This document shows, one piece after another, positions 219 through 47,087 of a stretch of 64,000 nt of DNA. The position numbers and the translations under genes were made by a program. The notes below the pieces were generated by a model. It saw only the letters and a program-made list of their open reading frames with translations. It was not told the origin of the DNA and searched no databases. The DNA is from a virus: IMG/VR virus record IMGVR_UViG_3300044644_001860, positions 62,001 through 126,000 of that record; one strand, 5' to 3'. Position 1 is the first letter of the stretch. Every line of letters begins with the position of its first letter.

Positions 219-256
219 ATGGTTCAGTTGTTTTTTCACATCAAGGAGGGCGTGAA

Positions 257-466
257 ATGAACTGGTTAATTATGTTGCTGATGTCGATCGTTGTGCCGGT
301 CGTCCAGCCTGTCGTTCAGCAAGGAGTGCAGAACGTTCAGGTCCGCGTTGCGCAACGCATGCAACAACAGGCGGTCAAGCCCGTACAGCCCGCGGTCGTT
401 TTTCATAACGGTCAGTGGTGGAAGTACGAGCAGGGCCAATGGTGGGTGTGGCAGGAACGCAGATGA
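257..466 (+). CDS. Small membrane-anchored protein, unknown function
   Basis: 69 aa. The ATG at 257 is chosen because AAGGAGGG lies just upstream; an in-frame extension would run into tRNA-Lys. The N-terminus (MNWLIMLLMSIVVPVV) is a hydrophobic anchor or signal. The middle is Gln/Val-rich and the C-terminus carries repeated WW motifs (GQWWKYEQGQWWVW). The stop overlaps the next start as ATGA, so the two are translationally coupled. I do not recognise the family. Confidence 0.6.
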   Translation: MNWLIMLLMSIVVPVVQPVVQQGVQNVQVRVAQRMQQQAVKPVQPAVVFHNGQWWKYEQGQWWVWQERR

Positions 467-747
467 CGAACTTTGAGTATCCGGTGGAAGAGTGGTTCAC
501 CGGACAGTACGCAGACATCCCAATCCATATGCAGGAGACGATCAAACGGTACGTGATTGAAAAAGTCAGGCCGGGTGATTTTCTTTCTGCTATCATCACG
601 AACGATCTCCGCGGCGCCGTTAACTACGCGGACGCCGACAACCTAGCCCGGATCAAGTTGTATGTGCAGTGGTTTTACAACCGCGCGCCAGCAATTTGCT
701 CGGGTAGCAAGGAAGCGATGACCAACTGGCTTTCGGGTAACGCGTAA
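463..747 (+). CDS. Hypothetical protein
   Basis: 94 aa, starting at the ATG that overlaps the previous stop (ATGA). Soluble and mixed alpha/beta in composition (MTNFEYPVEEWFTGQYADIP at the start), with no motif I recognise. It ends eight bases before the tRNA-Leu acceptor stem, so both are probably on one transcript. Confidence 0.6.
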   Translation: MTNFEYPVEEWFTGQYADIPIHMQETIKRYVIEKVRPGDFLSAIITNDLRGAVNYADADNLARIKLYVQWFYNRAPAICSGSKEAMTNWLSGNA

Positions 748-754
748 ACCCGTC

Positions 755-839
755 GGGGTTGTGGCGAAATGGCAGACGCAGCGGACTTAAAATCCGCTGG
801 GAAGTAATTCCCGTGTGGGTTCGAGTCCCACCTCCCCCA
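755..839 (+). tRNA. tRNA-Leu(TAA)
   Basis: A class II tRNA. The D-arm has the leucine-type sequence GGCGAAATGGCAGACGC, the anticodon loop is CTTAAAA, and there is a long variable arm GGGAAGTAATTCCC before T-loop TTCGAGT. The acceptor as read (GGGGTTG with CTCCCCC) has two mismatches near its base, so the 5' end or folding there is slightly uncertain. Confidence 0.88.
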
Positions 840-957
840 ATGATGATGACGATACACCGAAGTCGCCGGTCTTGTGTTCTGCAGTTTACTTCCTGACCTG
901 CGGAACACGAGCGTACGTTGCGCTCGCCGGCGATTTCTTTTTTCTATTGGAGCTCCC

Positions 958-1212
958 ATGAACAAGTGTCCGGAATGCAATGCCAGCCTCGACGGCGGCG
1001 GGATTTTTGAGACCTTGCGACCACAAGACTGGTGCGCACACATGGACGACGACGAATTGCGCAAATATGTGGAAGACCACTACGGCGCCGTCGATGCGCG
1101 ATTCAGCCGGGTTATTGGTGTCGAGTACCGCGGGCGTTACGACGGTGTGTGGGAATGGCGTTGCCCTGACTGTGCGGCAACGTGGCCTAGATTCGCGGAA
1201 GGGAAACGATGA
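958..1212 (+). CDS. Small zinc-ribbon-like protein
   Basis: 84 aa from the ATG at 958, which follows TTGGAG; the longer in-frame reading lacks a ribosome site. CPEC near the N-terminus and CPDC near the C-terminus form a CxxC...CxxC zinc-ribbon pattern. Acidic middle. The stop overlaps the next start as ATGA. Function unknown. Confidence 0.65.
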   Translation: MNKCPECNASLDGGGIFETLRPQDWCAHMDDDELRKYVEDHYGAVDARFSRVIGVEYRGRYDGVWEWRCPDCAATWPRFAEGKR

Positions 1213-1508
1213 GTTTTTTACACCAGAAATACGCGTTTCGAGAAGGGTGCTGTACGACCACGCTGGTCGACGCAGAAACTACGCGCAACACGCTGCGTGT
1301 TGATGGCCCGTGTTTTTACTGCAAAGAGCCGCAATCTGTCACGGTTCCGGCGGAAGCGCTTATTCGGTTTGGGCAGGGCGATTTCGCTCAAAACTGTTTT
1401 CCAAACCTAACCCCGGGACAGCGCGAGTTCTTGATATCCGGGATTTGTGACCCGTGCTGGGATCAGATGTTTGGAGCCGATGAAGAAGATGAGGAACCTG
1501 ACGCCTAG
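1209..1508 (+). CDS. Hypothetical cysteine-pair protein
   Basis: 99 aa, coupled to the preceding gene by an ATGA overlap. CFYC (about residues 36-39) and CDPC (about 83-86) form another CxxC...CxxC candidate zinc site, and the C-terminus is very acidic (ADEEDEEPDA). Two successive small zinc-binding candidates suggest a pair acting together, but no function can be assigned. Confidence 0.65.
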   Translation: MSFLHQKYAFREGCCTTTLVDAETTRNTLRVDGPCFYCKEPQSVTVPAEALIRFGQGDFAQNCFPNLTPGQREFLISGICDPCWDQMFGADEEDEEPDA

Positions 1509-1517
1509 GAGATCGAC

Positions 1518-1895
1518 ATGGCAGAGGAAGAAACAGTTGATCGGTTTGGATGGCGCAATTCCCACAAAGACTCGCCTGCAATGGGGCAGGAAGTCTACTA
1601 TTTCGGTCCCAACATAGGGATCGGAATCGGTCGGTACTCATACGAGGAAAACCGGTCATTTCGGCCGTATTCTTACGATGAAGCCGGCGTAAAAGTATAT
1701 GACGACAAAGAGGTCGGGCTTTGTCCGCACATATTTACCAACAATAAATGGGGCGTGGTGGACGCGTGCGACGCCCCGCGATGGCAACCGTATGACCCAG
1801 AACGCGCCAAAAGCTGGTCGCCTATGCCGCCAGTCGGATATATCCGTCAAATCGTGCACGATCTCGACGCAATAACATATGTCGACGAGAAGTAA
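1518..1895 (+). CDS. Hypothetical protein
   Basis: 125 aa, ATG preceded by GGAGATCGAC. Tyr/Trp/Pro-rich soluble protein with an aromatic middle (YYFGPNIGIGIGRYSY) and no recognised domain. It continues the run of small plus-strand genes between tRNAs. Confidence 0.65.
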   Translation: MAEEETVDRFGWRNSHKDSPAMGQEVYYFGPNIGIGIGRYSYEENRSFRPYSYDEAGVKVYDDKEVGLCPHIFTNNKWGVVDACDAPRWQPYDPERAKSWSPMPPVGYIRQIVHDLDAITYVDEK

Positions 1896-1913
1896 CAACA
1901 GAAAGAAGGTAAG

Positions 1914-2108
1914 ATGCCAGAAAATGTTTTTCTTTTTCAGCTGTTAACAGCGGCTGAAAAAAATATGCGCGAGGCTCTGGAGCCTTTGCAGAGTTTCGAG
2001 GCCGATGCTAAACAAAAAGATTCGCCGGCTGCGGTTCGTGGAAGGATCGCAGCAGACGCGATACGCGCGGCGTTGTTCGCGTTGCAGACAGTCAAGGCGG
2101 GAGCATGA
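1914..2108 (+). CDS. Small helical protein, unknown
   Basis: 64 aa, ATG at 1914 after AGAAAGAAGGTAAG. Predominantly helix-forming and Ala-rich (PENVFLFQLLTAAEKNMREA), with no recognised family. It stops five bases before tRNA-Val. Confidence 0.6.
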   Translation: MPENVFLFQLLTAAEKNMREALEPLQSFEADAKQKDSPAAVRGRIAADAIRAALFALQTVKAGA

Positions 2109-2112
2109 ACAA

Positions 2113-2186
2113 AGCCGCATAGCTCAATTGGTCAGAGCACCTCGTTTACACCGAGGGGGTTGGGGGTTCGAGTCCCTCTGCGGCTA
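2113..2186 (+). tRNA. tRNA-Val(TAC)
   Basis: The acceptor AGCCGCA (2113-2119) pairs perfectly with TGCGGCT (2179-2185), discriminator A. The D-arm GCTC...GAGC, anticodon stem CTCG/CGAG region with anticodon TAC, and T-loop TTCGAGT are all present. No encoded CCA. Confidence 0.93.
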
Positions 2187-2253
2187 TTAAACCCGGTGTG
2201 GGGCGCATCACGTGTTTTCAGGCACACCACTGAAAACAATCATGGAGGATTCT

Positions 2254-2631
2254 ATGGTCCGCAGTTTGCTGTGTCTGTTTTTGGTGGTGTCTGCCTTCAC
2301 GGTCGAAGCAGCGCCACGGCGTCGTAGTTACACCTACACAACCCCGAGCACGTCATCGATGCCGCGCGTGTCAAGCTACACGTCAAGCTCGATGCCGGTT
2401 CATTCCAGTGGCGGCACTTCTTCCGCTCAGGGCGTTGCCGAGATGATGGCGTCTCGGGGCGTCATGCAGCATTTCGGAGGCAACTCCGGATATGAAGGGG
2501 TCGGCACCGGATCGACGCCGGAACAGGCACTCGGCAATTGCTGCTATTCCAATAGCGGCATGGCTGTTGTTGATCAGGGCGTAGCCTGCGGCCGCAACGG
2601 CCGCTGGTACGCCTGCAAGCGTTACCGCTAG
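2254..2631 (+). CDS. Secreted Ser-rich protein
   Basis: 125 aa. The ATG at 2254 is chosen over upstream candidates because GGAGG lies nine bases before it. The first 20 residues form a signal peptide (MVRSLLCLFLVVSAFTVEAA). A low-complexity Ser/Thr/Tyr stretch follows, then a small C-terminal domain with paired cysteines (NCCYSNSG, GVACGRNGRWYACKRYR). Likely exported; function unknown. Confidence 0.65.
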   Translation: MVRSLLCLFLVVSAFTVEAAPRRRSYTYTTPSTSSMPRVSSYTSSSMPVHSSGGTSSAQGVAEMMASRGVMQHFGGNSGYEGVGTGSTPEQALGNCCYSNSGMAVVDQGVACGRNGRWYACKRYR

Positions 2632-2638
2632 GCCCACT

Positions 2639-2677
2639 GGCGGGCGCTGGAGGAAGCCCAAGCCTCTGGCGCCCGCC
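2639..2677 (+). other. 15-bp hairpin ahead of tRNA-Ile
   Basis: GGCGGGCG/CGCCCGCC continues into a second 7-bp block, with the loop AAGCCCAAG. It has no U-tract, so it is more likely a processing site or insulator than an intrinsic terminator. It separates the secreted-protein gene from tRNA-Ile. Confidence 0.5.
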
Positions 2678-2681
2678 TCAC

Positions 2682-2757
2682 GGGGCGTAAGGTAAGCCGG
2701 TTGCATCCAGCACTCTTATAAGGTGCCCATAGGTAGGTTCGACTCCTACACGCCCTA
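2682..2757 (+). tRNA. tRNA-Ile(TAT)
   Basis: The acceptor GGGGCGT (2682-2688) pairs with ACGCCCT (2750-2756, one G-U). The anticodon stem GCACT/GGTGC holds loop CTTATAA (anticodon TAT), and the T-arm is GTAGG-TTCGACT-CCTAC. The D-stem is poor (two pairs). Most bacteria read AUA with a lysidine-modified CAT anticodon, so a TAT tRNA would read AUA directly. Confidence 0.75.
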
Positions 2758-2776
2758 CTCACACTCGGAGACTGCG

Positions 2777-3202
2777 ATGAGTGACGTTCTAGTCGACATT
2801 CAGGAAGAGTACGGCTACCAGCATTGGTGGCTGCTCTGCACAGAAAAAGAATTTGCAGATATTTGCCGGCGCTGGCAGACTATGAAAAACCTATGCTGTT
2901 TGGTGCCGGTAGACCTCGTGTTTCCCGGCGCCCGTGGACAGTTTAATCAATGGCCGCCGGAGGCCGCCTGCAAATCACGGGTAGAAAATGCCCGCGTAGT
3001 CCGCGCGCATGTACATCAGCACGACGATTCGTGGCTGGATGGCGTCACGTACAACATACCGGTCAGCGCCGACGAAAATGACGACTCTTTCGAGATTGAC
3101 GGCGTGGTGTACACTGGCGAGCAAATCATAGCGTTGCTCGCCGAGTCGCGCGCCAAGCGCACGGCAGACTATTTCGCGCTTCATCCGGAGGACGCGGGGT
3201 GA
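2777..3202 (+). CDS. Hypothetical acidic protein
   Basis: 141 aa. The ATG at 2777 is chosen: GGAG lies at the correct distance, and the longer in-frame reading would overlap tRNA-Ile. Acidic soluble protein (MSDVLVDIQEEYGYQHWWLL at the start) with no recognised motif. Its stop overlaps the next GTG as GTGA. Confidence 0.65.
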   Translation: MSDVLVDIQEEYGYQHWWLLCTEKEFADICRRWQTMKNLCCLVPVDLVFPGARGQFNQWPPEAACKSRVENARVVRAHVHQHDDSWLDGVTYNIPVSADENDDSFEIDGVVYTGEQIIALLAESRAKRTADYFALHPEDAG

Positions 3203-3477
3203 AACTCTTGCTTTGCCCGGAATGTTCTGACATATTCAACCTGCAAGCACACGTTAAAATGTGCAGCTGCGGGCAAACGCGTGGTCAGTACATTGACAAT
3301 ATAAATGCTGTCTACTCTGGGGGTATACCTCTGGGGTTCGCTAACACCACGTTTCTTGAGGCGGTTGCAAATCAGCCTCAAGCTGGTGACGGCAAAACGT
3401 TTACTGCGTTTGTGATTCCTGTTATGTGTCCCACTTTCAAGGAGCTACCCGATGGCCTTTCGAAGAGTGAACGCTGA
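3199..3477 (+). CDS. Small zinc-ribbon-like protein
   Basis: 92 aa, GTG start within a GTGA overlap. An N-terminal CPEC and CSCG about 15 residues apart form a rubredoxin-like knuckle pair; the rest is unassigned. The end overlaps the next gene by 26 bases in another frame. Confidence 0.6.
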   Translation: MKLLLCPECSDIFNLQAHVKMCSCGQTRGQYIDNINAVYSGGIPLGFANTTFLEAVANQPQAGDGKTFTAFVIPVMCPTFKELPDGLSKSER

Positions 3478-3619
3478 GCAGTATGTCGAGCTGTGTAACT
3501 TCTGCATGGAGAATGACATCGCCTACGAGCTAAAAACGCTCGACAAGACGACGTTGCTCTTCGGGCTCGACCGACGATTCTGGCATGCGATTGACTACGG
3601 AGCGCTCGCGTGCGTGTAG
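3452..3619 (+). CDS. Small protein, unknown
   Basis: 55 aa (MAFRRVNAEQYVELCNFCME at the start). AAGGAG lies ten bases before the ATG. It begins inside the end of the preceding gene and stops three bases before tRNA-Glu. CNFC is one CxxC pair. No family recognised. Confidence 0.6.
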   Translation: MAFRRVNAEQYVELCNFCMENDIAYELKTLDKTTLLFGLDRRFWHAIDYGALACV

Positions 3620-3622
3620 TTA

Positions 3623-3695
3623 GGCCCCATCGTCTAGAGGCCTAGGACACCACCCTTTCACGGTGGATACTGGGGTTCGAATCCCCATGGGGTCA
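3623..3695 (+). tRNA. tRNA-Glu(TTC)
   Basis: The acceptor GGCCCCA (3623-3629) pairs with TGGGGTC (3688-3694, one G-U), discriminator A. The anticodon loop is CTTTCAC, and the D-loop has the glutamate-type CGTCTAGAGGCC. The T-loop is TTCGAAT. Confidence 0.94.
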
Positions 3696-3729
3696 GTGGT
3701 TCGATTTTCTTTAACAACAAAGGTTTCCC

Positions 3730-3888
3730 GTGAAAAGCCAGTATTTTTTCATCGCTGCCGCAGGGCTGAGTTTTGTCTTCAGTGTTAGTCTCTGGTTTGC
3801 CGGAGAGACTGATTTGAATCGGCAGCAGGCCCTTTTCGTAGGGCTGTGGGTGCCTAGTATCTTGGGTCTGGGGACACTCTTAAAGTGA
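3730..3888 (+). CDS. Two-helix small membrane protein
   Basis: 52 aa from a GTG start. It has two hydrophobic segments (FFIAAAGLSFVFSVSLWF and ALFVGLWVPSILGLGTLL) joined by a short polar hairpin. The stop overlaps the next GTG start (GTGA). It could be an accessory membrane-acting protein; unassigned. Confidence 0.55.
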   Translation: MKSQYFFIAAAGLSFVFSVSLWFAGETDLNRQQALFVGLWVPSILGLGTLLK

Positions 3889-3986
3889 CTAACTTCACGA
3901 TTTTCATCGTCGGAATTATCGTGACACTGATAACAGGAATGGGCGTTCTGCTCAGTCTTGTGTCCATTGGGTACAAAAAAAAGTAA
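3885..3986 (+). CDS. Single-helix micro membrane protein
   Basis: 33 aa, GTG start overlapping the previous stop. One long hydrophobic helix (FTIFIVGIIVTLITGMGVLL) with a Lys-rich tail (YKKK), so probably inserted with the C-terminus in the cytoplasm. The pair 3730/3885 reads as a coupled membrane duo. Confidence 0.5.
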   Translation: MTNFTIFIVGIIVTLITGMGVLLSLVSIGYKKK

Positions 3987-4000
3987 GTATCTTCTGGCGT

Positions 4001-4074
4001 GACTCGGTAGCCCAACTGGCAGAGGCGCAGGATTTAGGTTCCTGTTGTTGTGGGTTCGACTCCCACCCGGGTCA
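4001..4074 (+). tRNA. tRNA with TAG anticodon (Leu, short variable loop)
   Basis: The acceptor GACTCGG pairs with CCGGGTC (one G-U). The anticodon stem CAGGA/TCCTG holds loop TTTAGGT, giving TAG, which reads the Leu codon CUA. The variable region is only about five bases, whereas bacterial tRNA-Leu normally has a long variable arm; T-arm GTGGG-TTCGACT-CCCAC. The fold is clear, but the charging identity is less certain. Confidence 0.85.
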
Positions 4075-4100
4075 TTGGTCTTTTTCTATAGGAGCGCATT

Positions 4101-4412
4101 ATGCGTATTTGGCTCGATGACGTTCGGCCCATGCCGGCTGAGTGGGACGTATGGCTCAGGACAGCCGAACAAGCTATTCTGGCTATCAAGCTTGGCGGCG
4201 TGACGGCTATTTCACTGGACCACGATCTCGGCGACGAGTCTGCTAAGACCGGCTACGACGTGGCGAAGTTCATCGAAGAAGGAGCCTTTAAGGATACAAT
4301 AGCTCCCATAGAAATCTACGTCCACACCGCAAACGCGGCGGGCAGACAAAACATCATCCGTTCGATTCGCAAAGCCGAGAAGTTTTGGCATGAGCGACTC
4401 ACGCGGACTTGA
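4101..4412 (+). CDS. Cyclic-phosphate processing receiver-like protein
   Basis: 103 aa, ATG after TATAGGAGCGCATT. The N-terminal RIWLDDVRPMP, the central TAISLDHDLGDE and the C-terminal IEIYVHTANAAGR match the compact receiver-like domain proposed to process 2',3'-cyclic phosphate RNA ends in RNA-repair contexts. The acidic pair near the N-terminus and the SLDHDLG loop are the expected active-site elements. It sits between tRNA-Leu(TAG) and tmRNA, which fits an RNA-maintenance role. The function is inferred from family knowledge. Confidence 0.7.
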   Translation: MRIWLDDVRPMPAEWDVWLRTAEQAILAIKLGGVTAISLDHDLGDESAKTGYDVAKFIEEGAFKDTIAPIEIYVHTANAAGRQNIIRSIRKAEKFWHERLTRT

Positions 4413-4535
4413 CGATTCGCTTCGGCAAAAACGGTGCTCTGATAGTTGGTAGAGCTTAATTGCGTTCAGCCCTAGTCGGTGTGTTTTCCTCCTTTCTTAA
4501 CACCGGCCAAAAAATGCAGCCGTTTTCTCTTACTC

Positions 4536-4882
4536 GGGGGCGTACTGGTATCGACAGGATAAAGAAGGTAAAGACTGCGTGTCGTGGTTGATCGGGTGGC
4601 CACGTTAAAACTCGATTATGTTTCTAGCTGGCGCACATGCACCGGCCCTCGCTGCCTGACCTAGGTTAGGTGGTGAGTGGGGCGTCCTGAGCCCCATCGC
4701 CCAATCAGGATGACGCCGATAATCGGCTGATCTGGCCCAGCAAGAAAGGGCAAGATGGTGGTAGCCCACCTGACGCCGATAATCGGCTAACTTTGGCAGT
4801 AGTGTAAACAACAACTGCCTACACACGTAGACGTTTTTACTAGGCATATCTCTGGACGCGGGTTCGACTCCCGCCGCCTCCA
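4536..4882 (+). ncRNA. ssrA: tmRNA (one-piece)
   Basis: The 5' GGGGGCG pairs with 3' CGCCTCC to give a 7-bp acceptor, discriminator A, CCA not encoded. The 5' end continues TACTGGTATCGACAGG, the tmRNA signature, and the 3' T-arm is GCGGG-TTCGACT-CCCGC. Ninety-one bases from the 5' end lies the tag frame GCT...GCC TGA (4627-4659), encoding AGAHAPALAA, which ends in the classic ALAA degron. Two near-identical pseudoknot segments (TGACGCCGATAATCGGCT, about 4709 and 4770) follow. It would rescue stalled ribosomes and tag nascent proteins for proteolysis. Confidence 0.95.
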
Positions 4883-4885
4883 CTG

Positions 4886-5783: not shown

Positions 5784-6242
5784 ATGGACAAGCTGCTGTT
5801 TCTTGATGTCGATGGTGTGCTTAACAACGCCCGAATATTACGCGCAGAAAGTATTTTTGGGCTCGGTTGCAAGCAATTGAGTCTTCTAAAGCTTATCGTA
5901 GCTAACACTTGTTGTGAAATCGTACTCTCGTCAACGTGGCGACTGAACGACGAGCATAGAGAAGCGCTGCGTAACGCTTTTGAAGAACACTTAATACCTA
6001 TGTGGATCGGGCAAACGCCTGATTTGGGCATTTGCATGCGTCGTGACGAGATACTTTCGTGGATGATTGGGCATGAGGCGCCGGCCAAAGTCGTTATTCT
6101 CGACGACGACAAGGACGCAATGCTGGTAAACGCGCCAGAACGCTTCCGAGAACGGCTTTTTGTGCACACTAACTTCGATCATGGTCTTACGTTAGACCAC
6201 GCGGAGGCGATTTTGGAGTTTTTTAAGGAGGACTGTAAGTGA
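5784..6242 (+). CDS. HAD-family phosphatase, RNA-repair type
   Basis: 152 aa. Motif I is FLDVDGVLN (residues 6-14), motif II LSSTWR, and the acidic motif IV ILDDDKDAM. This compact HAD form (Asp nucleophile, SSTWR) is the type linked to RNA end repair phosphatases. The acid/base Asp of motif I is D10. The stop overlaps the next GTG (GTGA). Together with the genes at 4101 and 9684 it suggests RNA end processing; a general phosphatase remains possible. Confidence 0.75.
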   Translation: MDKLLFLDVDGVLNNARILRAESIFGLGCKQLSLLKLIVANTCCEIVLSSTWRLNDEHREALRNAFEEHLIPMWIGQTPDLGICMRRDEILSWMIGHEAPAKVVILDDDKDAMLVNAPERFRERLFVHTNFDHGLTLDHAEAILEFFKEDCK

Positions 6243-6451
6243 TTATGCGTCATTTAGAGGCAATGATTCTGCAAGAGCGCGGCGACAACCGAAATCTGCT
6301 CGCGGAAATCAAAGAAAAGCTGTCTCCTGAGTCGCAGGAACGGCTTTTCCGCCTTTTCCAAGACCATGAGCACGAGATTGGCCGCCTGAAAAGGAAAGCC
6401 AGCATGACTTCGGCAGCAATCGCGAGTCATCTGGCTGGTTTTGGACGCTGA
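6239..6451 (+). CDS. Small helical protein
   Basis: 70 aa from the GTG at 6239, seven bases after AGGAGG and overlapping the previous stop; the ATG at 6245 is too far from that site. Highly charged and helical (coiled-coil-like ERLFRLFQDHEHEIGRLKRK). Translationally coupled to the HAD gene, so perhaps a partner of it; function unknown. Confidence 0.6.
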   Translation: MIMRHLEAMILQERGDNRNLLAEIKEKLSPESQERLFRLFQDHEHEIGRLKRKASMTSAAIASHLAGFGR

Positions 6452-6466
6452 AAAGCAGTGTTTTGA

Positions 6467-6546
6467 CGTAACTCCTTATCGCGCAGTAGTTTACGACCGC
6501 TGGCATATGCTATTTGTCGTAAATGTCTGTGCGGTAAGGAGTTACG
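6467..6546 (+). ncRNA. Long near-perfect hairpin RNA
   Basis: Bases 6467-6486 pair with 6527-6546 over 20 bp (two G-U). A 3x3 internal loop follows, then 8 more pairs (6490-6497 with 6516-6523) around a loop containing GCATATGC. No ORF explains it. A T7 run about 25 bases downstream (6572-6579) may end the transcript. It could be a stable RNA, an RNase III site, or the end of the preceding mRNA. Confidence 0.5.
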
Positions 6547-6626
6547 CAAAATACACCAAACGCAACGATCCGTTTTTTTAGCTAATAGCGCCCCTGTATA
6601 CTCATTTGTTTACACAGGAGGGCGCT

Positions 6627-6698
6627 ATGGATACCTGCAGCTTCGATTTTGAGGACATTATGTCCTTCCTGTTCGACGACGACTGGGACGCCGAATAG
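6627..6698 (+). CDS. Acidic micro-protein
   Basis: 23 aa (MDTCSFDFEDIMSFLFDDDW at the start). AGGAGG lies seven bases before the ATG and the unit follows the T-tract/AGCTAATAGCGC element, so it looks expressed. Eight of 23 residues are acidic. Small acidic phage peptides are often inhibitors of host enzymes, but here that is only a guess. Confidence 0.5.
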   Translation: MDTCSFDFEDIMSFLFDDDWDAE

Positions 6699-6724
6699 CC
6701 CTAAATACCCCCTATGGCGAATAG

Positions 6725-6752
6725 CTAAATATAGGCCAAAAACAGGGTATAT
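6725..6752 (+). promoter_or_regulatory. Promoter-like element CTAAATA-N16-TATAT
   Basis: CTAAATA (6725-6731), sixteen bases including CCAAAAA, then TATAT (6748-6752). It matches seven other intergenic copies with the same spacing. A start about seven bases downstream would fall at 6759, exactly where the giant RNA's first stem begins. Confidence 0.65.
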
Positions 6753-6757
6753 GAATT

Positions 6758-7765
6758 GACGGGGATAATAGGTATTGCCTATAGACCCGTCCCGGAACCC
6801 GCTACGGTGAAAGTGGGACCAGACCTGCAGCAGCAGTGTTCTGGGCTTAATACTGCGGGGAAGCGCCGCAGGGCTGATGATCGGCCGCCACAATCCGTCG
6901 GGTCCGTTGCAGTGGACCAGTGAGACGTTAAAACAGAATCTCGACTGCGCGGCCTAATACGCCGTAACGTTCTGGCTGTAAAGTCAGATCGTTATCCGCA
7001 CCGCTACAGGTGTGGGTGAGCCGGCCCTTCTCGATGGGGTCTGGTTTCCCGATGGGGGTGTGCACTCATTAGAGCACCTCCATTAAGACGTTGTGGCGCC
7101 TCTTCTGCGCGACCAACGTACGGCCTGTGTCAATATAAGTCGTACCCAAGGTACGCTTTTGAAACAGGGTTTGCTGCTAATTCCTCCAGCGCAGCACACG
7201 GTTTTCGCAAGCCGTCCAATCGGGAGTCGATTCAGTGTAGGGAGACAAAGTAGCCATGGCGAAATGTTTCCAGCAGTGTTGACAGGGCGTAACGCACCCT
7301 GTGTGTGACACACTGCGATCTACAGCTGCAATCGGCTGCGAACCCATCTTCGGTTCGTGAGTGGAGGACAATACACGCTAGCCGCAAGGCTGGCACGTCG
7401 TTTCTTCCGACGTAGCGGAAGAGGTTTGACCAACAAGCCTAACTGTTGGTGATCGTATGTGGGTTAAACCACAAACGTTCGCGAGCCGCTCAGTCGCCAA
7501 AGTTCCAAGAGCCCTTAGTTGCGTTACGGAAGTGAAACGCAACGGCTAGCCGTGTAGCAGGAACGTGTATTAAGACACGTACACGGCACAATAAACGCCT
7601 ACCACCGGGCGATATGGCGTGGCTGCCGCACGAGGGAAGTAACGTGCGTGGGGACCGGCACCTAGCCGGGGCTGTGGACGCACAGTTGACGCTTAAATGG
7701 AAGACGCGGCGAGGTGCACCTCAAAGCGAGCCGGGTTCGATTCCCGGCATAGTGTCTAGTTTTTT
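6758..7765 (+). ncRNA. Giant structured noncoding RNA (GOLLD/ROOL-like class)
   Basis: About 1.0 kb without a credible ORF but dense in stems. These include 6758-6791; 6971-6988 with a GTAA tetraloop; 6996-7015; 7198-7215; a three-way element 7273-7316; 7377-7394 with a GCAA tetraloop; an H-type pseudoknot 7395-7421; 7429-7450; 7518-7543; and 7549-7587. A long-range pairing joins 6818-6825 and 7038-7045. A promoter-like element lies immediately 5', and the 3' end is a T-arm-like hairpin followed by six T. Size, ornate folding, and phage/tRNA-cluster context resemble the GOLLD and ROOL large RNA classes; membership is inference. Confidence 0.7.
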
Positions 7766-7842
7766 GGCAAGGTACCGTTCCCTGCCACCCCATCTGAGGG
7801 CTTTTGAACGGACGCGTGTCTCGAAAGAGAAAGGGGAGTGCT

Positions 7843-8715
7843 ATGAGCACTTTCAAGTCAGTTGTCGCCAGCCCGTTTTACGGGTTCGGCTGGGTCGCTG
7901 GTCAGATCAAGAACGGCTACGACAAGGCGGTGAACGCCACGTCGTCGGCCGCGTCGCAGGTGGCCACCGCCGCCACCTCGACGGCCAAGGCCGCCAAGGC
8001 CAAGGCCACCAAGGCGGGCAAGGCCGTGAAGGGCGGCGCCAAGGCGGCCAAGGCTGCTACGGTTAAGGCCGGCAGCTCGGCCAAGGCGAAGGTTGCGTCC
8101 TTCGCCCGCCACGCCGCCGCCGATGCCCGCGGGCTCGGCGCCATGCTGTTCGGCATGGTCAAAGTGGCCGCCGTGGGCGTTGTCACGATTGCCACCGCGG
8201 TTCTCCTCGGTGTCGTCAAGACGGTGGGCTTGGTGGCCCACGCCGTGGGGCTGATTGCCCTCGGCGTGGCGGCGTTGGTGGTGACTAGCTTCTCGCTGGT
8301 TGCCATTGCAGCGTTCTGCGTGGCGTTTCTCGCAACGCTCGCCGTGGTGTTCATCGTCCGCGGAATCTTCACAGCGCTCGCGGCTGTGGGGCGGTTTCTG
8401 ACCGGCGAAGGCGGCATGGTTATCGCGACCGTGTTGCACGACCTGTCGGTGTTCTGCTGCTTCCTTGCCGCCGTTTACGCCTGCGTTGCGGTGGCGGCGG
8501 TGGCCATTCCGGCGCTCGGGATTGCCGCCGCCAATGCTGCCGCCGTGGCGGTGATCGCCACGTGGTGTGCCCTGCTGGGCGCGGGAACGGGGATTGCCGG
8601 CCTTCTGCTGGAGGCCGCCAACCGCCTCCCGGAGGTTGTGGTGTATGCGCCGCCCAGTCGGCGTATCCTGCCTAACGACGTCTATCCGGGCGTCATCGGC
8701 ACCGCGACTGCCTGA
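7843..8715 (+). CDS. Lys/Ala-rich then multi-pass membrane protein
   Basis: 290 aa from the ATG at 7843 (AAGGGGAG upstream); a longer reading would start in the RNA's 3' flank. Residues ~25-90 are a histone H1-like Ala/Lys repeat (AKAAKAKATKAGKAVKGGAK). About five hydrophobic segments follow between residues ~100 and 270. The combination suggests a membrane protein with a basic nucleic-acid-binding cytoplasmic tail. High GC and GCC/AAG codon bias set it apart from its neighbours. Function unknown. Confidence 0.7.
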   Translation: MSTFKSVVASPFYGFGWVAGQIKNGYDKAVNATSSAASQVATAATSTAKAAKAKATKAGKAVKGGAKAAKAATVKAGSSAKAKVASFARHAAADARGLGAMLFGMVKVAAVGVVTIATAVLLGVVKTVGLVAHAVGLIALGVAALVVTSFSLVAIAAFCVAFLATLAVVFIVRGIFTALAAVGRFLTGEGGMVIATVLHDLSVFCCFLAAVYACVAVAAVAIPALGIAAANAAAVAVIATWCALLGAGTGIAGLLLEAANRLPEVVVYAPPSRRILPNDVYPGVIGTATA

Positions 8716-8793
8716 CTAAGGTCGGGTAGTAAACATTGACGCGCACACACGCGTGGAGGGCAGCAAGCCACCTCCTTACCAAAAAAGAATTGC

Positions 8794-8830
8794 ACGGGCC
8801 GGTCACGCCGACGCAGGCCCGTTTCTTTTA
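8794..8830 (+). terminator. Intrinsic terminator
   Basis: ACGGGCC (8794-8800) pairs with GGCCCGT (8816-8822), followed by TTTCTTTT. It sits between the membrane protein gene and the HD hydrolase gene. Confidence 0.7.
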
Positions 8831-8873
8831 TCTATTCCCAATCCCACATCCTTAAGAAAGGAACGCGTTAATT

Positions 8874-9500
8874 ATGGGAATTCTGGACACCAAGGCTGCC
8901 GTGGCGTGCACGGTTGCTCACGAGTCGATTCAGCAGATGCGGAAGTATGGCGACCGGCGCTATTACACGCACCCGCTGACGGTGGCCGCGCTCGTGCACA
9001 CGCTGCCGGGCACGGACGAGGCGATGTTCGCTGCGGCGTGCCTCCATGACGTCATCGAAGACGTCTACCCGAAGAACCCCGCCTACGGCCCCGCGTGGGT
9101 TGCGAACAACTTCGGCGAGGAAGTGCTGCTGCTCGTTCATGAGCTCACCAACGAGTTCACGAAAGAGCGGTATCCCGACCTCAACCGCAACGAGCGGAAG
9201 CGGCGGGAGAGTCTGCGGCTCGCCGACATCTCCGACGCCGCGAAGGTTGTGAAGCAGGCAGACCTGTATCACAACAGCACGGAGATCAGCCCTGACACCC
9301 GCTTCTGGGGTCAATGGTTGAAGGAGAAGAACGAGCTCGACGAGCTCATCGGCGCGTGGGAGGACCGCGAGTGCGGCTTCCTCACGGGTGGCGACGTCTG
9401 GAGTCTTGTCGGCTCTGGCGAGTTCAAGATGCTCGTCGCTACGGCGCACGAGATCGACGAGTTCTACAAGGTCGCCGACTGGGGCCTTGTGACTGCGTAA
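8874..9500 (+). CDS. HD-domain hydrolase, small alarmone hydrolase-like
   Basis: 208 aa, ATG after AAGAAAGGAACGCG. It carries the RelA/SpoT/MESH1 hydrolase-type signature: YTHPLTVA (His), CLHDVIEDV (HD plus ED), LVHELTNE, and KQADLYHN (late Asp/Asn). Proteins of this kind remove pyrophosphate from (p)ppGpp using Mn2+; no synthetase domain is present. A phage enzyme could blunt the host stringent response during infection. Another nucleotide-pyrophosphate substrate is possible. Confidence 0.75.
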   Translation: MGILDTKAAVACTVAHESIQQMRKYGDRRYYTHPLTVAALVHTLPGTDEAMFAAACLHDVIEDVYPKNPAYGPAWVANNFGEEVLLLVHELTNEFTKERYPDLNRNERKRRESLRLADISDAAKVVKQADLYHNSTEISPDTRFWGQWLKEKNELDELIGAWEDRECGFLTGGDVWSLVGSGEFKMLVATAHEIDEFYKVADWGLVTA

Positions 9501-9509
9501 ACAATTGGC

Positions 9510-9547
9510 GCGGCAGGGAGTCCTGCCCTCCCGCACCTTTTGTTTAG
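9510..9547 (+). terminator. Terminator-like hairpin with short U-tract
   Basis: GGCAGG-GAGT-CCTGCC (9512-9527) within a GC-rich dyad, then CTCCCGCACCTTTTGTTT. It is weaker than the others but occupies the same position before the AGCTATTAGCGC dyad and promoter element. Confidence 0.5.
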
Positions 9548-9589
9548 CTATTAGCGCGTAGCTAAATATACGACAAATAAACGGCATAT
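9543..9589 (+). promoter_or_regulatory. Dyad plus CTAAATA-N16-CATAT promoter-like element
   Basis: TTTAGCTA (9543-9550) and TAGCTAAA (9559-9566) form an inverted repeat around TTAGCGCG. CTAAATA (9562-9568) and CATAT (9585-9589) are 16 bases apart, with CAAA in the centre. It would drive the 2H phosphoesterase gene at 9684. Confidence 0.65.
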
Positions 9590-9683
9590 CTAATGAGTAC
9601 CGGGAATCATATTGCCACTGGTACTTGAGTTTTAAGCCGCACATCCGGCTAGCTCCACAAGGCAATTCTGAAGGAGCCCACAA

Positions 9684-10106
9684 ATGGCATCTATCTACAC
9701 CGCCGTCCTCCTGACCGAAGAGTCCCGCCAGAACCTGATCGCGTTCTACGGTCTCACGTCGTTCTACGCGGAGGGTTGGGTCATCAAGGCCCACCACATG
9801 ACGATCGATACCAAGTCTGCGGATAAGGCCGGCGTCGCGGACTTGGTCGGCAAAGAGTTCACGATGGACGTGACCGCCGTCGGCAGGCTCATGGTGGACG
9901 ACACCCGCGGCATCGTCGCCGTGACTGTCGAGACTGCGGCCCCGTCGAAAAACGCCATCAAGCACGTCACGGTGGCGCACGCGGATGGCGTCAAGCCTAT
10001 GATGTCTAACAACATCACCGACTGGCGGCCCGTCAAGCCGGGCACGCTCACGCTCACGGGCGTCGTGTGCATGCTTGAGTCGGCTCCCGTGCCGGCGAAG
10101 AGCTGA
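9684..10106 (+). CDS. 2H phosphoesterase-like protein
   Basis: 140 aa, ATG after GAAGGAGCCCACAA. Two HxTx motifs, HHMTID (about residues 37-42) and KHVTVAH (about 93-99), are the hallmark of the 2H fold that opens or cuts cyclic phosphodiesters. Known relatives act on RNA 2',3'-cyclic ends or tRNA-splicing intermediates; the phage anti-CBASS protein Acb1 shares the fold and a similar length. The RNA-repair neighbours favour the first role, but the substrate cannot be decided. It has its own promoter element and terminator. Confidence 0.7.
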   Translation: MASIYTAVLLTEESRQNLIAFYGLTSFYAEGWVIKAHHMTIDTKSADKAGVADLVGKEFTMDVTAVGRLMVDDTRGIVAVTVETAAPSKNAIKHVTVAHADGVKPMMSNNITDWRPVKPGTLTLTGVVCMLESAPVPAKS

Positions 10107-10152
10107 ACACTCGCGGCGGCTTACAACGCCGCGCAGTAGGTCTGCATAGACC

Positions 10153-10187
10153 AGCCCCCAAACCGAAAGGTGCGGGGGCTTTTTTTA
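10153..10187 (+). terminator. Intrinsic terminator
   Basis: AGCCCCC (10153-10159) pairs with GGGGGCT (10174-10180), with an inner ACC-GAAA-GGT stem-loop, followed by eight T. It ends the 2H phosphoesterase unit and its U-tract merges with the next dyad. Confidence 0.9.
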
Positions 10188-10229
10188 GCTATCAGCGCGT
10201 GCTAAATATGGAACAAATGCGCGGCATAT
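10185..10229 (+). promoter_or_regulatory. Dyad plus CTAAATA-N16-CATAT promoter-like element
   Basis: TTTAGC...GCTAAA dyad around TATCAGCGCGT. CTAAATA (10202-10208) and CATAT (10225-10229) with 16 bases between, including ACAAA. It precedes the micro-ORF at 10293 and the gene at 10420. Confidence 0.65.
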
Positions 10230-10292
10230 TGATTGTGCGCCAGTGATTTTTTGTTGGCGCGGGTTTGTTGACAACTGCAAAAGGACCTTGCG

Positions 10293-10394
10293 GTGTTTGA
10301 ATTCTTTGACAACATGTCGCTCAGCTCCTTGATGGCGTTCGCGTTAAGTACGTCATGGGTGCTTAGTTCTTTGTGTGAATTGTTCGAGGAGTAA
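10293..10394 (+). CDS. Micro-protein, unknown
   Basis: 33 aa from a GTG preceded by AAAGGACC (MFEFFDNMSLSSLMAFALST at the start). Hydrophobic middle, acidic ends. It lies between a promoter element and the gene at 10420 and may be a leader peptide. Confidence 0.45.
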   Translation: MFEFFDNMSLSSLMAFALSTSWVLSSLCELFEE

Positions 10395-10419
10395 CGCTCT
10401 TTAAGAAGGGAGTCGTCCG

Positions 10420-10917
10420 GTGGATATTTTTCTAGACATAAAAAGGCAGCAAGAATACGCGAAACAGCTGGAAGACGGCGACAGGCGTAACGTGGAAGAC
10501 TGGGCCCGCAACCAAGAGCGCCGTAATGAGGCAAAGCGCCGCGGCCTTTTTCAGCGCGATAAGCCCAAAGAGCGCCGCATTGCTATTTTTCAGCGCTGGC
10601 AAAAAATGCGTAAAGCGAGTGCCATCAAGCTGCGCGCCCCGGACGGCGACTCTAGGTTTTGTTTATGTAAATGCGGTCGGCCCAAGGCGTGCGCACAAAC
10701 GCACTGCTACGACTGTCAGGACATGATGTTTATTGTCCGGCACAGGATACCAATGTCTGGCGCAGTAGAAGTCGAAAAGCGATATGGGCGAATATACGAA
10801 ACGCCCCTGCTGCGCCACGACATCGACTACCGATCGTCTAGGTACGAGGACAGTGAGAACTTCGGTAGCCTCCACAATGTGATTCGGGCGATGGAAGACT
10901 CCCTAGCGTACGATTAA
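10420..10917 (+). CDS. Zinc-binding basic protein
   Basis: 165 aa from a GTG after AAGAAGGGAG. The N-terminal 60 residues form a charged helix (DRRNVEDWARNQERRNEAKR). The middle holds a cysteine cluster CLCKCGRPKAC...CYDC, consistent with a zinc ribbon. Probably nucleic-acid binding; family not recognised. It has the same promoter class as the RNA-processing genes. Confidence 0.65.
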   Translation: MDIFLDIKRQQEYAKQLEDGDRRNVEDWARNQERRNEAKRRGLFQRDKPKERRIAIFQRWQKMRKASAIKLRAPDGDSRFCLCKCGRPKACAQTHCYDCQDMMFIVRHRIPMSGAVEVEKRYGRIYETPLLRHDIDYRSSRYEDSENFGSLHNVIRAMEDSLAYD

Positions 10918-10920
10918 ACG

Positions 10921-10948
10921 CTAAATAGTCTCCAAAAGCCTGACATAT
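10921..10948 (+). promoter_or_regulatory. CTAAATA-N16-CATAT promoter-like element (upstream of a pair)
   Basis: CTAAATA (10921-10927), N16 with CCAAAA, CATAT (10944-10948). It begins three bases after the preceding stop codon and is followed 26 bases later by a second copy. Confidence 0.6.
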
Positions 10949-10973
10949 ACAGAAAATGCGGGTTTCTGCTGAG

Positions 10974-11001
10974 CTAAATATTCAGCAAAAACACGGCATA
11001 T
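10974..11001 (+). promoter_or_regulatory. CTAAATA-N16-CATAT promoter-like element (downstream of a pair)
   Basis: CTAAATA (10974-10980), N16 with GCAAAAA, CATAT (10997-11001). A dyad GCTGA...TCAGC overlaps its upstream half. The expected start, about 11008, lies at the beginning of the structured RNA region. Confidence 0.65.
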
Positions 11002-11007
11002 CTAGTG

Positions 11008-11655
11008 CTCAGCGCGCTAGCTGTCGACGGCTACGCGCTAATTGACGTGAATTCGTTCTGAGCCTGCGCGGTGTACCATTGCTTGAACGGATGCTTCCGT
11101 GGTGATTCGAGCAGTGAGTAAAAGCTGCGCAGGCTTTTCCGTAAATACGTCCGCGGCAGGCAGTTAAGCCGCGTAGAAAACTGCCAATACACTCGACCTT
11201 CGCCTTGCGAGAATGCGGCGAACAGAATCTGCCGTCACGGGCACCATCTTTGGTGGCTCGAAAGTTGGGCGATCATCGGCCCAAAGGCGGGATAGGACGC
11301 ACACTATCCGCGCTACGCGATTTGTAAATCCCAAAGTGGAAGGAGGAAATGTCGAATTCCCAAAGCAAGGAATTCCGTAGCAGGCTGTGTAAGACTGCGC
11401 AAAAAGCATTTCCAAGCGCCCCGGACCGCTAGCTCAAACACAACGACGCTAGAAGAGGGTTCGGTACCGGATGGGCCGGTCGTGATTCATAGCATAAACC
11501 TGCGTTTGTTACTTTGGTCGGCCAACCAAATAATAAACAAAGGCGCTACTGCAGTCGGTCGTACAACTGACTGTAGAGTAATCGCGTGACTGATGAGGAT
11601 AGCAAACACGTAGTTGGGGAACTCGTAGCAGGTTAGCGTCTGCTGCGATGCTTCT
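11008..11655 (+). ncRNA. Second large structured noncoding RNA region
   Basis: About 650 bases without a credible ORF between two promoter elements and the gene at 11718. Stems include 11011-11039; a nested element 11061-11135 closed by AGCCTGCGC/GCGCAGGCT and followed by TTTT; 11199-11222; 11265-11284; 11290-11309; a domain closed by 11345-11351/11407-11413 around a GAATTCC/GGAATTC hairpin; 11466-11480; a nested hairpin 11505-11541; and 11549-11576. It may be one RNA or a 130-nt RNA (ending near 11138) plus a second one. The class is unassigned; large-phage-RNA context as for 6758-7765. Confidence 0.6.
11042..11079 (+). promoter_or_regulatory. Shared motif TTGACG-N24-TGTACCAT
   Basis: TTGACG (11042-11047), 24 bases, then TGTACCAT (11072-11079). 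The same arrangement with identical spacing recurs at 31153-31190, and both copies contain GCGGTGTACCAT. It is unlike the CTAAATA element and may be a second promoter or regulator class. Confidence 0.4.
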
Positions 11656-11717
11656 TCCCAAAGGTGGTGCCCGTGACGGCAGTTGTTAGTTTAACCCCTA
11701 AGAAAGGATGGACTCTC

Positions 11718-12053: not shown

Positions 12054-12500
12054 GTGTCAAAGACCGTTAAAAAAAAGCGCCCTGCTGAGTCGCTCCACGT
12101 ACGCTATATGGGTGTCGATTCCCGTATCGCTGAAATTCGTGGCCACATCGTCAAAATGTGCGCTGCCATTGACGACATCGAGGCACGGCACAAGGAACAC
12201 GGCGAAGTTCCCGACGAGCACTTGTCGTGGTTGAACTCGTTTATCGATAACCTCGATGACACGATGTACCATCACAAGCTGATCTCCGTTAAAAAGCCGC
12301 CTAGCCATGGTGTTATTGTCAAAAAGCGCACGGAATACTACGACCGCCGCTGGAAGAAACGGATGGCCATGCTCACCAAGTCGCTCAACACGATGTCGCG
12401 GAAAATCAAAAGCGCCTTCGATAACTTCCCGCCCGAAATCGAATCGCGGCTCACCGCGCTTGAGAGCACTGTCCCTGACATCGATAACAGTGATGACTGA
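12054..12500 (+). CDS. Helical basic protein, unknown
   Basis: 148 aa from the GTG at 12054, seven bases after AAAGGAGG. A Lys-rich N-terminus (MSKTVKKKRPAE) is followed by long amphipathic helices. It sits alone between a promoter element and a strong terminator, so it is a monocistronic unit. No family recognised. Confidence 0.65.
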   Translation: MSKTVKKKRPAESLHVRYMGVDSRIAEIRGHIVKMCAAIDDIEARHKEHGEVPDEHLSWLNSFIDNLDDTMYHHKLISVKKPPSHGVIVKKRTEYYDRRWKKRMAMLTKSLNTMSRKIKSAFDNFPPEIESRLTALESTVPDIDNSDD

Positions 12501-12506
12501 TTTTTC

Positions 12507-12537
12507 GGGGGTGTGCAAACGCGCGCCCCCTTTTTTT
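12507..12537 (+). terminator. Strong intrinsic terminator
   Basis: Ten pairs GGGGGTGTGC/GCGCGCCCCC with loop AAAC, then seven T. It is followed by ACTATCAGCGC, a copy of the dyad half-site, but without a recognisable CTAAATA element. Confidence 0.92.
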
Positions 12538-12588
12538 AACTATCAGCGCTCCGTTGCCATTCTATTCCCTTTTTGTCACAATATTCGT

Positions 12589-13662
12589 ATGCCATTCAAA
12601 TCTGAAAAGCAGCGTCGTTTTCTCTGGGCCTCGCATCCCGATATAGCGAAGCGGTGGGCGCACGAATACCCCGAATCAAACAAAGGCCTGCCTATGTACG
12701 CGCACAAGAAGAAAGACGAGAAAGAGGCCGCATTAACAGCAATTCACAGTTACGTGAATAAACTTAACAATTTGTTAATATTGCCACATACCGTACAAAA
12801 CAAGGCTTTTTCGAAAGTTGCCAATTCAAAGCAGACATATATTGAGATTCCCCACAGCGAAAAGCCAACGTACGCTGGGGAAGAACGGGAGAAAAACCCC
12901 GAACATCGCCCAGACTTTGATGTCACGCAATCAGGCACAGAACAGCCTAAAAAACGCCAAGAAAACGCAATTAACTCGCTTCTCAAGAAGATCGCTTTGG
13001 TCGTAGGGCCCAACATCAGAAAGATAAAAGAAGAGCAAGACGCTGCGCTGGAAGGCCGCGAACCCGCCTACGTGCCGACAAACGCGGACGTAAAGCGCTA
13101 TCCCGTCGCGACAACGGGAATTATGCCGCCCATGGGCTCGCAACCACAGCCACAACAGCAAGCGCCGGTCAAGCAACCGCAGTCTCGCCCTTCTGCGCCC
13201 CCTGTCGGAAACGGTAGCAGCACGCAATCTCGTCCCATTCAGTCTTTAGGCGGCTTGTCTGTAAAAAACGAACTCACCGGAAACTCGGGTTCTGCTGGCG
13301 GACGTAATCCGGGCGCAGGTATCAAAACGTCAAGCAGTCCAGCGTGGCAACGAAGCGCTGGTAAAAATGACGAAGGCGGCTTAAACGCCAAAGGTCGCGC
13401 CAGCTACAACAACGCTACGGGCGGCAATCTCAAAGCCCCCGTGACCGAGTCCAGCCCCAAAGGCGATCGGGCAAAGCGCCAGAACTCATTTTGTTCGCGG
13501 ATGTGCGGTATGAAAAAACATGAGACTGGCAGCAAGACCAAGAAAGACCCCGATTCCCGCATCAATAAAGCTTTGCGTAAATGGAACTGCAAGTGCAGCA
13601 GTGTCAATGGTCTAGTTGAAATGCTGCGTAATTCGCGTTTTGCCGGCCCCCAATCCCGATAA
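12589..13662 (+). CDS. Modular protein with MPFKSEKQRR start and DPDSRINKALRKW tail
   Basis: 357 aa from the ATG at 12589; upstream in-frame sequence overlaps another gene and a terminator. The N-terminal module FKSEKQRRFLWASHPDIAKR resembles a short motif common at the start of phage proteins. The middle (~150-290) is Pro/Gln/Ser/Gly-rich and probably disordered. The C-terminal module SFCSRMCGMKK...DPDSRINKALRKWNCKC is a compact cysteine-containing domain I recall as an uncharacterised (DUF-type) domain in large phages. Function unknown. Confidence 0.7.
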   Translation: MPFKSEKQRRFLWASHPDIAKRWAHEYPESNKGLPMYAHKKKDEKEAALTAIHSYVNKLNNLLILPHTVQNKAFSKVANSKQTYIEIPHSEKPTYAGEEREKNPEHRPDFDVTQSGTEQPKKRQENAINSLLKKIALVVGPNIRKIKEEQDAALEGREPAYVPTNADVKRYPVATTGIMPPMGSQPQPQQQAPVKQPQSRPSAPPVGNGSSTQSRPIQSLGGLSVKNELTGNSGSAGGRNPGAGIKTSSSPAWQRSAGKNDEGGLNAKGRASYNNATGGNLKAPVTESSPKGDRAKRQNSFCSRMCGMKKHETGSKTKKDPDSRINKALRKWNCKCSSVNGLVEMLRNSRFAGPQSR

Positions 13663-46125: not shown

Positions 46126-46140
46126 TTTCGGAGGCAAAAA

Positions 46141-47080: not shown

Positions 47081-47087
47081 GTGCCGT

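Follow-up and report, generated by a model that had tools for sequence, protein, structure and literature searches.

We found that positions 6758-7765 of the DNA analysed here (the window, 64,000 nucleotides that are bases 62001-126000 of the 146,439-base IMG/VR record IMGVR_UViG_3300044644_001860) probably encode a new, trans-acting, large structured noncoding RNA. This RNA is very probably real, and it is very probably new as a family, though of a known kind, the large ornate RNAs of phages. It has no coding capacity beyond chance and lies behind the phage's own promoter motif. Judged by sequence comparison, it probably belongs to a new family that occurs in a clade of ~200-kb phages and of which we recovered four distinct members; the four RNAs have in common two covarying hairpins (M3 and M4) together with further hairpins and letters, all in one order, and the rest varies (~500 to 1000 nt). 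Our confidence in a new trans-acting RNA, though fairly high, is slightly reduced because several of the helices matched by eye are absent from the predicted ensembles of some members.

The same phage is also represented by a 205,010-base contig in which the large RNA is 100% identical, and two shorter contigs carry it with 100% identity as well, one of them only in part. The nearest cultured phages by capsid protein (27% shared) are Salmonella phage Arash and Vibrio phages D69, D148 and D181. The window phage has genes for a multi-subunit RNA polymerase at 41722-48995, and six tRNAs and a tmRNA at 145-4883 agree with the placement of the RNA in a phage tRNA region by a preliminary description of this DNA. 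The features of the locus are collected in the table.

Features of the large RNA and its immediate surroundings (window coordinates)
Feature	Position	Strand	Basis and remarks
Promoter CTAAATA-N14-GG(C/T)(A/G)TAT	6725..6752	+	motif copies in the phage clade
Large RNA (~1 kb)	6757..7765	+	from promoter to T-run 7760-7765; no ORF beyond chance, strong fold, core common to three other phage RNAs
5'-terminal hairpin GACGGG...CCCGTC	6758..6791	+	ensemble p 0.95
M1, proposed long-range helix	6925..7119 (6925-6929/7115-7119, ACGUU/AACGU)	+	would close a central domain, by analogy; 5 bp, weak
M2, UGNAAA hairpin	6966..6993	+	holds the GTAA loop; p at least 0.91 in all four ensembles, stem letters differ; correspondence by eye
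Hairpin directly before M3	7018..7047	+	in the ensembles of the window, L202 and L120 types; not L102
M3 hairpin, GUGC/GAGC inner motif	7051..7084	+	covariation and strict descriptor
M4, UAAGYC and hairpin CGUUCC-CAM-GGAACG	7124..7168	+	two copies in the 680-nt member
M5 hairpin, then CCAATCGGGAG in the window (CACATCGGAG in other members)	7198..7226	+	hairpin in all four ensembles; letters aligned; matched by eye
M6 helix 7225-7240/7320-7337	7225..7337	+	ensemble; starts right after M5, two inner hairpins
GCAA tetraloop hairpin	7377..7394	+	ensemble p 0.99
Possible H-type pseudoknot	7395..7422	+	letters checked
tRNA-like 3' structure	7703..7756	+	acceptor-like GACGC/GTGTC (7703-7707/7752-7756), one small arm, T-arm CCGGG-UUCGAUU-CCCGG (7731-7747)
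Next gene downstream	7843..8715	+	Lys/Ala-rich N-terminus, then five transmembrane-like segments (hydropathy only); possible partner

The boundaries 6758-7765 given in the preliminary description are correct, and its statement that the region holds no credible ORF agrees with our counts: the longest sense ORF has 71 aa, against a median of 81 in shuffled sequence, and the ORFs of all four members lie inside the 95% shuffle range. At least a dozen stems had been proposed, and the ensemble contains 39 helices of at least 4 pairs at p>0.4; the two GNRA loops, GTAA at 6978-6981 and GCAA at 7384-7387, are both present. For the H-type pseudoknot that had also been proposed, the letters are in place (ACGTC 7395-7399 with GACGT 7409-7413, and TCTTCC 7403-7408 with GGAAGA 7417-7422) and we keep it as a candidate. 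A long-range 8-bp pairing of 6818-6825 with 7038-7045, by contrast, we do not accept: its letters exist, but perfect 8-mer matches more than 100 nt apart are at chance level in this RNA (9 observed vs a mean of 6.04 in 50 shuffles), and both arms sit in strong local hairpins (6819-6844, p 0.94; 7018-7047, p 0.87). The minimum free energy of the RNA has a z of -7.3 (20 shuffles), or of -6.5 with 16 shuffles, where the antisense strand has -3.0; the other three members have -7.4, -4.2 and -6.8. Folding energy alone is not decisive, because z <= -5 was also reached by 3 of 11 further 1000-nt stretches sampled at fixed steps along the window (one at -6.26). When the + strand was scanned in 160-nt windows, 6401-7360 stood out as the ~960-nt block with the strongest structure in the whole 64 kb (mean z -3.5 vs -0.67 for the window as a whole); it takes in a separate inverted repeat, and blocks inside the RNA had z of -2.8 to -3.2. 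That inverted repeat, near-perfect and 78 nt long (6468-6545), is the strongest local fold of the window (z -8.5). It is followed at 6627-6698 by a tiny acidic ORF (MDTCSFDFEDIMSFLFDDDWDAE); in relatives, similar inverted repeats precede a small acidic ORF, and short D/E-rich peptides resembling MDTCSFDFEDIMSFLFDDDWDAE were recognised by eye at the equivalent place.

The promoter-like element said to lie exactly 5' of the RNA is there, and is a copy of a phage-specific motif, here CTAAATA-N14-GGCATAT. Counted without duplicates, this motif occurs 52 times (57 times with them) across 22 stretches of the phage clade, in all 52 cases with a spacer of 14 although 13-16 was allowed, and it has no copy in the reversed sequences. 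The window itself has five copies, four in the interval 6725-10974, and a generic sigma-70 scan gave nothing on the + strand at the 5' side of the RNA. We infer that the phage polymerase reads this promoter.

A search with the capsid protein led to 62 loci of the phage clade, from which 40 stretches, mostly of the matching region, were fetched and their ORF-less gaps read; near-identical duplicate loci and repeated contexts are left out of several of our listings. In blastn, window 6700-7800 gave some match at E<=1 in 35 of 50 clade records and nothing related to the body of the RNA at E<=0.001, the nine matches at that threshold all lying at query 14-80, which is the promoter and the first bases of the RNA. 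Using nhmmer, the window RNA found nothing at E<0.4 outside the window phage, and the L120 type described below found L202 at E 0.03. Because neither nhmmer nor BLAST finds a relative of its body, the homology of the window RNA rests on motifs and their order. A common hairpin motif, TAAGYCGTWCCCAMGGWACGC, was spotted in the ORF-less gaps. Scanning IMG/VR for exact occurrences of this strict M4 motif returned nine stretches, all in this RNA family; a loosened M4 and M5 pattern returned the identical nine, and the M4 pattern had no occurrence in the bacterial and archaeal genomes of GTDB. A pattern for M3 that was based on the L120 and L202 types, and that the window and L102 types do not fit, returned six IMG/VR stretches, five of them of the family; the sixth (L227) was judged by eye to be an unrelated chance match with no fitting context.

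Four distinct RNAs were thus recovered, all from related phages: the window type, L202 (680 nt), L120 (503 nt) and L102 (634 nt), with lengths that depend on the chosen ends. Four is a lower bound, and exact patterns miss members with other letters. The 680-nt type is identical in L221 and L222 and occurs also in L224, and the L102 and L120 types are close to each other, which leaves about three independent lines. Neither the L202 nor the L120 type had a match in the phage collection. A covariance model of M4 and M5, built from the four members, matched 6 of 50 records, all of them known members. A conserved KSEKQRRFLWA protein, used as a handle, matches phages at large (best 80 loci) and brought in L120 and L121, both later shown to carry a member; a further gene-based scan returned seven loci, with no new member among them. 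According to the M4-M5 model, the RNA is present in 3 of the 21 clade records that have a conserved gene ~5 kb downstream (counted at E<1e-24), one of the three being the window phage and some of the 21 ending near the place of the RNA. The large RNA is dispensable for the clade, since only these 3 of 21 carry it.

Covariation in homologous stems, which the preliminary description had proposed as a check, was run on two hairpins, M3 and M4, and with the few sequences at hand it favours an RNA. In M3, 42 of 44 cells are paired and double changes occur at 4 of 11 pairs (four sequences, two of them nearly identical here), with a covariation score of 0.515 vs 0.234 when shuffled and with its paired cells reached in 0 of 500 shuffles. 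For the inner helix of M4 the comparison had five copies, of which the 680-nt type supplied two; here 30 of 30 cells are paired and double changes occur at 3 of 6 pairs, equalled in 6 of 500 shuffles; when the outer stem of M4 and M5 are added, double changes occur at 5 of 18 pairs (2 of 500), all of these shuffles ignoring the relatedness of the sequences. A single-sequence fold of L202 forms M4 copy a and pairs copy b elsewhere. A strict M3 descriptor has four matches in 4.48 million strand-bases, and these are the four members; a relaxed M3 followed by M4 has seven, of which five lie in the four members and about two are expected by chance. M3 followed by M4, both covarying, is what we take to define the family, and this is what was found.

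Strands able to pair stand in one order in all four RNAs, namely M1, M2, further hairpins, a hairpin before M3, M3, the M1 partner, M4, M5 and M6, and their letters read as a UGNAAA hairpin, the GUGC/GAGC hairpin, the UAAGYC-CGUUCC-CAM-GGAACG hairpin and then a hairpin, an AUCGG stretch and a helix. The strands of the full M1-M6 order are pairable in all four, but not each helix is found in each predicted ensemble, and the helices other than M3 and M4 were matched by eye. M1 appears in the ensembles of L202 (p 0.84) and L120 (p 0.67) and is absent from that of L102; in the window ensemble its partner, 7115-7119, pairs with 7088-7092 instead (p 0.68). M6 has a p of 0.96 in the window and of 0.99 in L202 and L120; L102 is able to form it, and its ensemble pairs the 5' strand elsewhere. 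A pseudoknot between the M5 single strand and letters before M3, noticed by eye, was dropped as something that chance would often give.

Two rival readings concern the nature of the region. The region could be decayed or chance sequence, a functionless remnant of a tRNA array, as its position in a tRNA region, the T-arm at its end and its absence from most checkable relatives would allow; against this, covarying hairpins recur in the same order in four phage RNAs and the promoter is intact, so that we find a remnant scarcely credible. It could also be a ribozyme or an intron-like element (self-cleaving, group I/II-like or a mobile RNA), which would fit its large size, the conserved letters of its joining regions and its sporadic presence. 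However, no such element was among the Rfam matches at E<=10 for the window stretch or at E<=5 for the L221, L218 and L102 stretches, no reverse transcriptase or homing nuclease was among the selected nearby proteins scanned, and no interrupted gene was seen; a ribozyme or intron is thus very improbable.

The new RNA would act in trans, as neither a leader nor a trailer. Its core lies directly behind the promoter, with no gene ahead of it, in the window and L202 types, whereas in the L102 and L120 types it stands between a small gene and a terminator-like T-run; it is because of these two arrangements, promoter-adjacent in two types and after a small gene and before a terminator in the other two, that we take the RNA to act by itself. 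One could instead envision a giant 5' leader, a cis-regulatory part of the mRNA for the downstream membrane protein, since in the window and 680-nt types the RNA lies between a promoter and a gene on the same strand. This is improbable: in the L102 and L120 types a gene precedes the core and a terminator-like T-run closes it, which means that a downstream gene need not belong to the unit, and in the window the tRNA-like element and the T-run separate the RNA from the gene.

The same downstream gene gives rise to the main rival explanation, an OLE-like membrane ribonucleoprotein in which the RNA would bind the membrane protein encoded directly downstream and act at the membrane. The protein of 7843-8715, which has no Pfam or PHROG match at E<=0.01, combines a Lys/Ala-rich N-terminus with five transmembrane-like segments, and membrane-like genes also stand behind the 680-nt member (one segment), the L115 tRNA-like element (two segments) and the second large RNA of the window (one segment), to be read against a baseline of 11 membrane-like genes among 66 predicted in the window. 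There is a precedent as well, in that passages of PMC11332333 trace the discovery of OapA to its position as a neighbour gene of OLE. On the other hand, the segments are predicted by hydropathy only, no homology is evident among the downstream proteins, the L102 and L120 types are followed by a terminator and a short acidic ORF, the next L102 protein has no such segment by hydropathy, and OLE is not among the Rfam matches. We therefore regard a membrane partnership as unlikely, and return to an RNA that acts by itself.

The window RNA is closed by the T-run 7760-7765, 3' of its tRNA-like element. Such an element is found in two of the four distinct members and is not a defining feature: the 680-nt type has a similar one (recognised by eye and by predicted helices) that the descriptor missed through a T-stem mismatch, and the L102 and L120 members end in terminator-like T-runs. 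In the two members that have it, the element may be a processing signal of the RNase P/Z type that would free the RNA from the downstream mRNA. This role we rate as only plausible, because T-arms are frequent in these stretches even outside the genes that ARAGORN recognises (28 rows, about 17 of which are by eye copies of tRNAs or tmRNAs that ARAGORN missed). A short coding transcript of L115 also ends in a similar tRNA-like element, and tRNA-like genes with a CTTATTA loop that ARAGORN did not report are found at L100 17480 (-), L103 861 (-), L109 6683 (+), L110 17475 (-) and L198 5033 (-). Eight Rfam matches were obtained at E<=10 in 6450-7900, five on the upstream inverted repeat, one beyond the RNA and two touching it, both weak and both at the tRNA-like end (mascRNA, E 0.66; Deinococcus Y RNA, E 1.1). 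Like mascRNA/menRNA (RF01684), the window RNA has an acceptor-like stem, one small arm and a T-arm at the end of a long RNA; unlike a member of that family, it stays below the cut-off (19.4 bits vs 42.5), so that this is a resemblance only.

Several other features of the surroundings were observed. Proteins of RNA-repair and nucleotide type are encoded at window 5784-6239, 8874-9497 and 9684-10103; these neighbours include a HAD_SAK_2 domain, an HD hydrolase and a tRNA-ligase-CPD-like (phosphodiesterase) protein just below the Pfam cut-off. The window has a second large noncoding RNA (~700 nt), at 10995-11690, behind its own copy of the phage promoter at 10974; it has no Rfam match at E<=5 and one homologue, L108 8332-8800 (E 3e-30), with which a two-sequence fold has double changes at 40 of 122 pairs. 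An unclassified ~480-nt RNA, here called family A, occurs at L105 10311-10790 (-) and in L204, L104, L100, L098, L102 and L120, with near-invariant core letters, a 25-bp closing helix and double changes at 30 of 146 pairs (seven sequences); its core pattern is found in nine IMG/VR stretches, and divergent versions are present in L110 (about 12071-12805) and L109. A conserved noncoding element of ~225 nt stands directly 3' of the tmRNA in nine clade records (L105, L204, L098, L120, L109, L104, L110, L102 and L100), the window being absent from the matches of that search. Two more ORF-poor regions of large size, each preceded by a promoter of this kind, were seen at L203 1991-2480 (-) and L110 10241-10860 (-), neither with a relative at E<=0.1 among the clade loci compared. 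Family A, which adjoins the present RNA in L102 and L120, and the L203 RNA were considered as homologues of the window RNA and set aside, as no common ordered motifs were seen.

Drawing on the window RNA, the ~480-nt family, the ~700-nt RNA and the ~225-nt RNA, several of them behind a dedicated phage promoter, one may speculate that the tRNA/tmRNA region is an RNA island of several large structured RNAs that are unrelated to each other and unclassified, possibly RNA machines or RNA-built compartments made during infection, with tRNA-like elements as 3' punctuation. This is a doubtful proposition at present; if true, it would mean a phage strategy that uses several different giant RNAs at once. 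To our knowledge, only a small number of large ornate RNAs have been described from phages, and one more class, unrelated to these and from another phage clade, would lend weight to the view that giant RNAs are a recurrent phage tool. A clade in which several large RNAs stand side by side is well suited to studies of their role, the further RNAs of the island widen the interest beyond the window RNA, and probing and cryo-EM are within reach for a core (M1-M6) that measures ~400 nt in the window.

Among known large RNAs, none accounts for this one by model. Compared with the 4227 families of Rfam release 15, which we take to include OLE, the window RNA reached the cut-off of none, and a search of open-licence papers gave none that we recognised as describing it. 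The preliminary description had proposed a ~1 kb ornate noncoding RNA in a phage tRNA region, either a distant member of GOLLD or ROOL or a new class; the first part stands, with a new class as the best reading, and the distant membership does not, as neither family is among the matches at E<=10 in 6450-7900, with no known carrier among the controls. The GOLLD model (RF02032) had no match at E<=10 in 13 phage records, the searched genomes including no known carrier, and on 14 control genomes it gave matches in five, none over the cut-off; the ROOL model (RF03087) matched 0 of the 13 records at E<=10 and 0 of the 14 control genomes, none a known carrier. Nor did OLE appear among the Rfam matches at E<=10 for 6450-7900. 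We accordingly do not assign the window RNA to GOLLD, ROOL or OLE, for want of a model match, the first two models having been run without a known-carrier control.

Likeness in kind is a separate matter. Vibrio phage ICP1 has an ORF-less RNA of ~800 nt that passages of PMC7567579 describe as its most abundant transcript, with a role given there as unknown. The window RNA is similarly a noncoding, ORF-less space of ~1 kb in a phage; it differs in its tRNA surroundings, the same passages describing ICP1 as devoid of tRNAs, and in sequence, since blastn of 6600-7850 against 50,697 phage records gave matches in only four, of 23-26 nt, none of them ICP1. OLE is a large structured RNA whose partner OapA, according to passages of PMC11332333, was found because the gene for this membrane protein lies next to it. 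The window RNA, too, is large and structured, and the gene behind it has five transmembrane-like segments by hydropathy, which is not seen for L102; unlike OLE, it has no Rfam match, belongs to a phage and not to Bacillota, and has a neighbour that shows no sign of being OapA. ROOL, in passages of PMC12286853, is an ornate phage or prophage RNA, often near tRNA islands, for which no function is reported there, and the window RNA is likewise an ornate phage RNA near tRNAs, differing in that it has no match to RF03087 at E<=10, a model on which the control genomes were silent too. GOLLD, also known from mycobacteria (passages of PMC9569102), is described in passages of PMC12286853 as phage-encoded, often beside tRNAs, in many cases longer than 800 nt, and made of a conserved and a less conserved part; the same passages have it form a closed 14-mer RNA nanocage, and present both GOLLD and ROOL as nanocage formers. 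The window RNA, without a match to RF02032, resembles GOLLD in being phage-encoded, beside tRNAs, longer than 800 nt and built of a conserved core and a variable part; the combination of phage origin beside tRNAs with a size of ~800 nt or more is seen in the window RNA (~1 kb), the other three members having 503-680 nt. Hairpin loops complementary to themselves or to each other (kissing) were not above chance in the window RNA, a result that neither shows nor excludes its assembly. By analogy, the RNA might serve as a rigid scaffold, assembling either with further copies of itself or with partners related to the ribosome or to tRNAs, while the phage takes over translation, and a role related to translation fits because its neighbours are tRNAs, a tmRNA and RNA-repair-like proteins. 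Given its size, its phage origin, the tRNAs around it and a common core with a variable periphery, it is a tentative but real possibility that the RNA works as GOLLD and ROOL do.
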